Below, piece by piece: positions 41,907-42,746 of a DNA stretch of 64,000 nt. The stretch is from the NCBI GenBank assembly GCA_005524015.1, contig SULG01000004.1, positions 1 through 64,000 on the forward strand, in the 5' to 3' direction. Numbering within the stretch: position 1 is the stretch's first letter; every line of letters starts with the position of its first letter. A model generated the notes under the pieces. It was not told the origin of the DNA. It did no database searches and worked only from the letters and a program-made list of their open reading frames with translations. Both the position numbers and the translations under genes were made by a program. Origin of the DNA: Candidatus Jettenia ecosi. GTDB taxonomy: Bacteria > Planctomycetota > Brocadiia > Brocadiales > Brocadiaceae.

Positions 41907-42037
41907 CGTAACAAATACTCAACCAGGTAACCTTTCTTTCTATATTATTACCTCCAGATTATCTCTTATGCCTTTAAGATTTTATATTTTTCTTGAAATA
42001 CCGGGATATGCATGTTATTTAAGATATATAGTACATT

Positions 42038-42156
42038 ACGATAAAGGCAAACCCTGAGTAATCAGGGGACGCAAAGGAAAGGGTCTTGTAACCGTGGAGA
42101 GTGTTCGTGAAACAGTGTCAGCATAAGTAACTGACACTTACACTCATAACTGACAC
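42038..42156 (+). ncRNA. degenerate GEMM-I-like (c-di-GMP riboswitch) leader
   Basis: ACGATAAAGGCAAACC, a hairpin CCCTGA-GTAA-TCAGGG (42052-42067) and GGACGCAAAG match the first half of the GEMM-I riboswitch almost perfectly, including the GNRA loop. The second half is atypical: GGAAAGGGTCTTG replaces the usual GCC..GG, and the conserved P2 3' strand (GGGTTACC-like) is not found. Downstream, GTGTCAG (42115-42121) can pair with either of two CTGACAC copies (42131 and 42150), a possible switch ahead of the terminator at 42171. It may be a decayed or variant aptamer. Confidence 0.5.
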
Positions 42157-42170
42157 GATAGAAATAAGAT

Positions 42171-42226
42171 AGCCTTACTGCCGAAGATGTTCTTGTTGAA
42201 TATCTTGACAGTAAGGCTTTTTGTTT
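42171..42226 (+). terminator. intrinsic terminator after the GEMM-like leader
   Basis: AGCCTTACTG (42171-42180) pairs with CAGTAAGGCT (42209-42218), followed by TTTTGTTTT. The arms and part of the loop are related to the terminator at 1306. It could attenuate transcription into the small cysteine-rich genes or simply end the receiver gene transcript. Confidence 0.75.
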
Positions 42227-42566
42227 TAAAGAACTTCCCATATCAATAGTAAAAAGTGAATCTGATCTGAGAGAATTTTTCTCTTTAAAAAAACCGAAAC
42301 TAACCTTACGGACCATATTTGCGATCATCGATACAACATCATGAGAGGAGGTGATGGTTGAATCTTTAAAATTTTTTATTTTATGTATCAAGTTTGATGC
42401 ACGTACATTGGGATAGAGCCAATGAGTGACTAACTTTTATTTTATATAAATTAATGATGCGCGCAAACATCCGGAGGGATATTCCTGAAATTGATTTATG
42501 GATAGTTTTAGGAAAAAATATGTCCTTTATTTTCATACTTTTTCATTAAATTAAAAGGAGATGCCT

Positions 42567-42746
42567 ATGTTTAAAAAAATTGGTATTACCGCGACGTTTG
42601 TGGGCGCATTGATGCTCAGTATAGGTACGGTTAACACTTTTGCGAAGGAACCTAATTGTCCGGATGCTTGCAAATGCCCAGATACGATAAAATGTGATCC
42701 AGAATGTGTGAAGGGAAAGACAGATAAATGTATTTGTAAACATTAA
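42567..42746 (+). CDS. small exported cysteine-rich protein
   Basis: 59 residues. A signal peptide (MFKKIGITATFVGALMLSIG..TFA) leads to a mature part of about 33 residues with seven cysteines in KEPNCPDACKCPD, KCDPEC and DKCICKH. The spacing could coordinate a metal or form disulfides; no family is recognised. AGGAG is six bases before the ATG at 42567; an upstream in-frame ATG at 42561 is too close to the ribosome site. It follows a GEMM-like leader and terminator about 340 bp upstream and has its own terminator immediately after. Confidence 0.7.
   Translation: MFKKIGITATFVGALMLSIGTVNTFAKEPNCPDACKCPDTIKCDPECVKGKTDKCICKH

Follow-up and report, generated by a model that had tools for sequence, protein, structure and literature searches.

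A probable c-di-GMP-I (GEMM-I type II) riboswitch with a long hairpin extending the P2 tip in an anammox planctomycete

The DNA analyzed here, a stretch of 64,000 nucleotides (the window) from Candidatus Jettenia ecosi, an anammox planctomycete of the family Brocadiaceae, includes what is very probably an intact c-di-GMP riboswitch of class I (GEMM-I type II). Its P2 is extended at the tip by a long hairpin, and the ligand would switch it on through mutual exclusion of P2 and an intrinsic terminator. The computed support consists of the aptamer match, the ligand contact nucleotides, an overlap between strands, the predicted exclusion and the conservation of the element. Judging from its sequence, the element is most likely a c-di-GMP sensor that controls the continuation of transcription.

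Comparison of the complete window with Rfam revealed a match to RF01051 (c-di-GMP-I, GEMM-I) on the + strand at 42036-42185, with a score of 57.8 bits (cut-off 35) and an E value of 1.1e-8, calculated over 64 kb and 4227 Rfam families. This is the sole match above cut-off in the window. All 87 positions of the covariance model (1-87) are included in the cmscan alignment, with a 77-nt insert located in the loop of the second helix. Because of this E value and the existence of 30 related copies, the resemblance to an aptamer exceeds what chance would produce. The initial annotation had recognized a GEMM-like leader followed by a terminator, with a nearly perfect first GEMM-I hairpin, and this holds: GGCAAACC, a GUAA loop and GGGGACGCAAAG are found at 42046-42076, and the 6-bp hairpin with its tetraloop of the GYRA class occupies 42052-42067 (+). 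In an alignment of 30 copies, consisting of 29 intact insert-bearing copies and one Brocadia copy that were selected for resembling the window in DNA sequence and are mutually related, 100% of the cells of this hairpin are paired and two-sided changes are present.

The view that the P2 consensus was absent and its second half missing has to be abandoned. P2 (P3 in publications) has its 5′ strand, AGGAAAGGGUCUU, at 42075-42087 (+) in the cmscan alignment and its 3′ strand, AAGAUAGCCUUACU, which is the supposedly missing half, at 42166-42179 (+) in the RF01051 alignment; the 3′ portion of the aptamer as a whole, 42165-42185, reads UAAGAUAGCCUUACUGCCGAA. The pairing joins AG.A.AGGGUCUU to AAGAUAGCCUU.CU and includes a single G-A mismatch (42077/42177), at a position where 17 of 29 distinct copies lack a pair. 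Among the 30 aligned copies 94% of the P2 cells are paired, again with two-sided changes. The second half seemed to be missing because a long hairpin interrupts it, and the distal helix closes across the insert, about 80 nt beyond the area that had been searched. A search of the whole genome placed the window element only at 42036-42093, with 38.3 bits as opposed to the 57.8 bits of the window scan.

The aptamer is followed by an intrinsic terminator at 42171-42227 (+), identified by sequence and folding and situated, as initially described, after the pairing motifs of the insert discussed below. It consists of a 5′ arm (42171-42180), a 3′ arm (42209-42218) and a T-rich tail, that is, AGCCUUACUG ... 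CAGUAAGGCU and then a T-rich stretch, and the two arms of the window terminator are perfect complements (10/10). Most of the terminator 5′ arm lies within the P2 3′ strand, and therefore aptamer and terminator are predicted to be mutually exclusive. When growing transcripts of the window were folded, with energies that disregard ligand, kinetics and tertiary contacts, the mean P2 probability was 0.23-0.51 until the terminator was complete and 0.01 thereafter; for the contested bases only, it was 0.49 before and 0.00 after synthesis of the terminator arm. P2 is thus predicted to be only about half formed without ligand. In 26 of the 30 copies a T tail is present and the terminator arm agrees with the P2 strand at no fewer than 8 of 10 bases; in 25 of these 26 the P2 probability is below 0.1 after the terminator (the exception is L164, 0.36). 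The other four copies (L166, L172, L175 and L185) are missing a well-matched arm.

These features suggest a c-di-GMP ON switch. The nascent RNA would fold the aptamer first; with c-di-GMP bound, P2 would retain AGCCUUACUG, the terminator would be blocked and transcription would go on, while in its absence AGCCUUACUG would pair with CAGUAAGGCU and transcription would halt. The insert would serve as a structural cap that brings the distant P2 strands together. A published logic of the same kind is that of the pilM riboswitch of Geobacter metallireducens (PMC9262584), which also shares a strand between mutually exclusive aptamer and terminator and is also an ON switch. That riboswitch senses cGAMP; the window element differs from it in its contact nucleotides, which are those for c-di-GMP, and in its long insert.

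On its own, the insert (42088-42165, +) folds into an imperfect long hairpin. It is present in ten intact copies of the same genome, and the three genomes of the genus have 11, 11 and 10 insert matches. Of these 32 matches, 29 are in intact riboswitches and three (L167, L176 and L177) are in copies whose aptamers are lost or degenerate, with no insert found away from riboswitch remains in the three genomes; the idea of a free-standing repeat was consequently discarded, as all 32 matches sit in riboswitches or their remains. Of these three, L167 and L176 retain the terminator 5′ arm in addition to the insert.

Within the insert, a motif script located GTGTCAG at 42115-42121 and CTGACAC at 42131-42137 and 42150-42156, all on the + strand. 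The first CTGACAC is the partner of GTGTCAG in a local hairpin, as indicated by covariation and folding, and the second is, according to folding, an alternative partner that also forms part of the outer insert helix. The initial annotation had seen here a hairpin that could switch between both partners. The sequences are as described and the two pairings are possible, but pairing perfect in both ways occurs in only three of the 30 copies, the window included, and the alternative helix shows no two-sided changes; the actual switch appears to be that between P2 and terminator. One 7-mer with two complements is not by itself an arrangement beyond chance: five 7-mers of the window, one of them poly-T, have two complements likewise.

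It is nevertheless conceivable, if unlikely, that the insert constitutes a second regulatory module in which GTGTCAG toggles between the CTGACAC copies in response to another signal (a protein, a small RNA or a ligand) and so tunes P2 or the terminator. Consistent with such a module, the alternative helix (42115-42121/42150-42156) can pair in 93.8% of the cells as compared to 17-44% for slid versions; counting G-U pairs, all seven pairs form with the far partner in 17 of the 30 copies and locally in six; and the insert is retained in about ten copies per genome in three species. The covariation points the other way. The local hairpin (42114-42121/42131-42138) has 88.7% of its cells paired, with two-sided changes at two pairs, which is the extent of its covariation support, and a non-pair at one position in 22 of 27 distinct copies; one covariation control, control (a), took core and insert helices jointly. 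In the same 30 copies the alternative helix has zero two-sided changes and does not exceed the shuffle control, and it loses pairs in copies in which the local hairpin compensates (L161, L163/L170 and L180). Some orthologues, among them the G002 copy of the window locus, have lost parts of the insert, and near-repeat CAGACAC/CTGACAC units yield this type of pairing for free. The local hairpin also wins in the predicted fold of the window itself and is found in the minimum-energy fold of six of eight inserts folded, being absent from L060 (the G002 orthologue) and L173. Hence, while the far pairing is often the better one by count, the modest covariation favors the local hairpin. A toggle acting as the main switch was set aside as improbable on the basis of the covariation pattern and the low number of copies with perfect two-way pairing. 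A broader proposal, that the insert acts as an additional sensor or a timing module, making these anammox riboswitches two-input devices that spread through the genome as an aptamer-insert-terminator cassette, is a decidedly long shot.

Comparison of putative orthologues, grouped by sequence similarity, showed that core and insert differ in their rate of change. Summed over 19 comparisons between species, the core shows 31 differences in 1292 sites (2.4%) and is free of indels, and the insert shows 111 differences in 1421 sites (7.8%) and eight indels. The core of the window locus, which each of the three genomes of the genus keeps intact, has two and one differences out of 68 positions with respect to its two orthologues and no indels. 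These numbers bear on the suggestion that the element is a decayed, non-functional riboswitch copy, which would agree with the G-A mismatch in P2 and with the relatives L167, L176 and L177, where the insert is kept and true decay of the aptamer core is seen. The near invariance of the core and the perfect terminator arm led us to reject decay for the window copy, for which it is very improbable.

All 30 copies have G, A and C at the positions that contact the ligand, as in c-di-GMP aptamers; the C following the contact C is replaced by T in two of them. The contacts in Vc2 are G20, A47 and C92, and the correspondence was established through G11, A38 and C81 of Bc1, the position of the C being set by the model alignment and less certain (both sets from PMC11218506). 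The same source describes type I GEMM-I aptamers as having a GNRA loop, typically GAAA, and a receptor for it, and type II aptamers as usually having a GYRA loop and no receptor. The window aptamer has a GUAA loop, hence a GYRA loop, and a UCUU/AAGA helix in place of the 11-nt receptor (CUAAG/UAUG), which identifies it as type II and would help explain why its P2 escaped notice at first. Among 104 distinct aptamers parsed, which are related loci and not a random sample, the CUAA receptor motif accompanies all nine GAAA loops, a UCU strand is found instead in 88 of the 91 with other GNRA loops (neither in three), and four have non-GNRA loops. The GYRA loop would dock in the minor groove of C-G/U-A pairs at the receptor register; GUGA and GCGA loops with AG/CU receptors are described in PMC3494683. 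Thus, the window has in common with RF01051 type II aptamers the full core, the contact nucleotides, a GYRA loop without the 11-nt receptor and the terminator platform, and it differs in that its P2 tip carries a structured extension of 77 nt and in being one of about ten insert-bearing copies in its genome.

A divergent variant class had also been considered. In this case the aptamer would recognize a different ligand, either cGAMP or that of the orphan c-di-GMP-I-GGC group, RF03167, which belongs to the same clan, has the same overall fold and ranks first by E value, ahead of RF01051, in small searches; we regard this as very unlikely, since the RF03167 score of 56.2 bits is below its own cut-off of 59, the CGCGAA of that model is CGCAAA in the window, with A in the place of G, and all 30 copies have G where the cGAMP-binding G20A mutants (treated in PMC6274999) have A. 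The contact nucleotides and the RF03167 score led to the rejection of both the cGAMP and the GGC variants.

The gene likely to be under the control of this riboswitch encodes an exported Cys-rich protein of 59 amino acids (42567-42746, +). The initial annotation had such a gene following the element; the ORF exists, but it starts about 340 nt downstream and is not directly adjacent. Six Cys residues are invariant in 12 aligned homologues, and homologues were found in 26 of 33 Brocadiaceae genomes; searches of Pfam and NCBIfam gave no match for the ORF. The intervening region includes, at 42354-42416 (+), an ORF of 20 amino acids, MVESLKFFILCIKFDARTLG, preceded by GGAGG and conserved in all three genomes of the genus, which from its sequence may be a leader peptide. 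Between terminator and gene, Rfam gave only weak, chance-like matches for other RNAs, and a simple scan detected no + strand promoter, which is weak evidence because the same scan missed the terminator. No Rfam match was found within about 1.5 kb of the Cys-rich homologue in any of 20 loci scanned in other genera, out of 27 outside the window locus and its two orthologues; the coupling of riboswitch and Cys-rich gene is therefore, as far as tested, confined to the genus of the window.

The ORFs following other copies in the genome, picked by a mechanical choice of the downstream ORF, have a Pfam match in 13 of 16 cases, including pilus, polysaccharide and exported proteins, and the adjacent genes include those for PilM, a pilin-like protein, a sugar transferase, a glycosyltransferase and a matrixin. 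Nine GGDEF matches in the genome, as compared to its 28 GEMM-I matches, make a source of c-di-GMP plausible. At locus L004 (G000:C87:1646-1732) a GEMM-I aptamer precedes a GGDEF match by about 600 nt in the same orientation, an arrangement through which c-di-GMP could possibly feed back on its own production. At L002/L003 (G000:C10:37399-37830) two GEMM-I aptamers of type I are separated by about 340 nt, and each is followed by an ORF of its own.

The riboswitch is ordinary in kind, and what is mildly new is the insert family and the large number of copies in anammox bacteria; the titles and abstract openings listed for open-licence PMC articles on anammox bacteria, Brocadia or Jettenia contained no description of these elements. 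The window element shows that a GEMM-I riboswitch can keep its core intact when P2 is extended at its tip by a long hairpin, and therefore readers and tight models can overlook half of the element. RF01051 matches were found in 45 of the 59 genomes searched, this one included, and the genomes of the Brocadiaceae (G000-G032) have very many GEMM-I riboswitches each. With 28 matches in this genome, 26 of them over cut-off, and up to 56 in one relative (G020), the numbers suggest that anammox bacteria rely on c-di-GMP riboswitches to an unusual extent.
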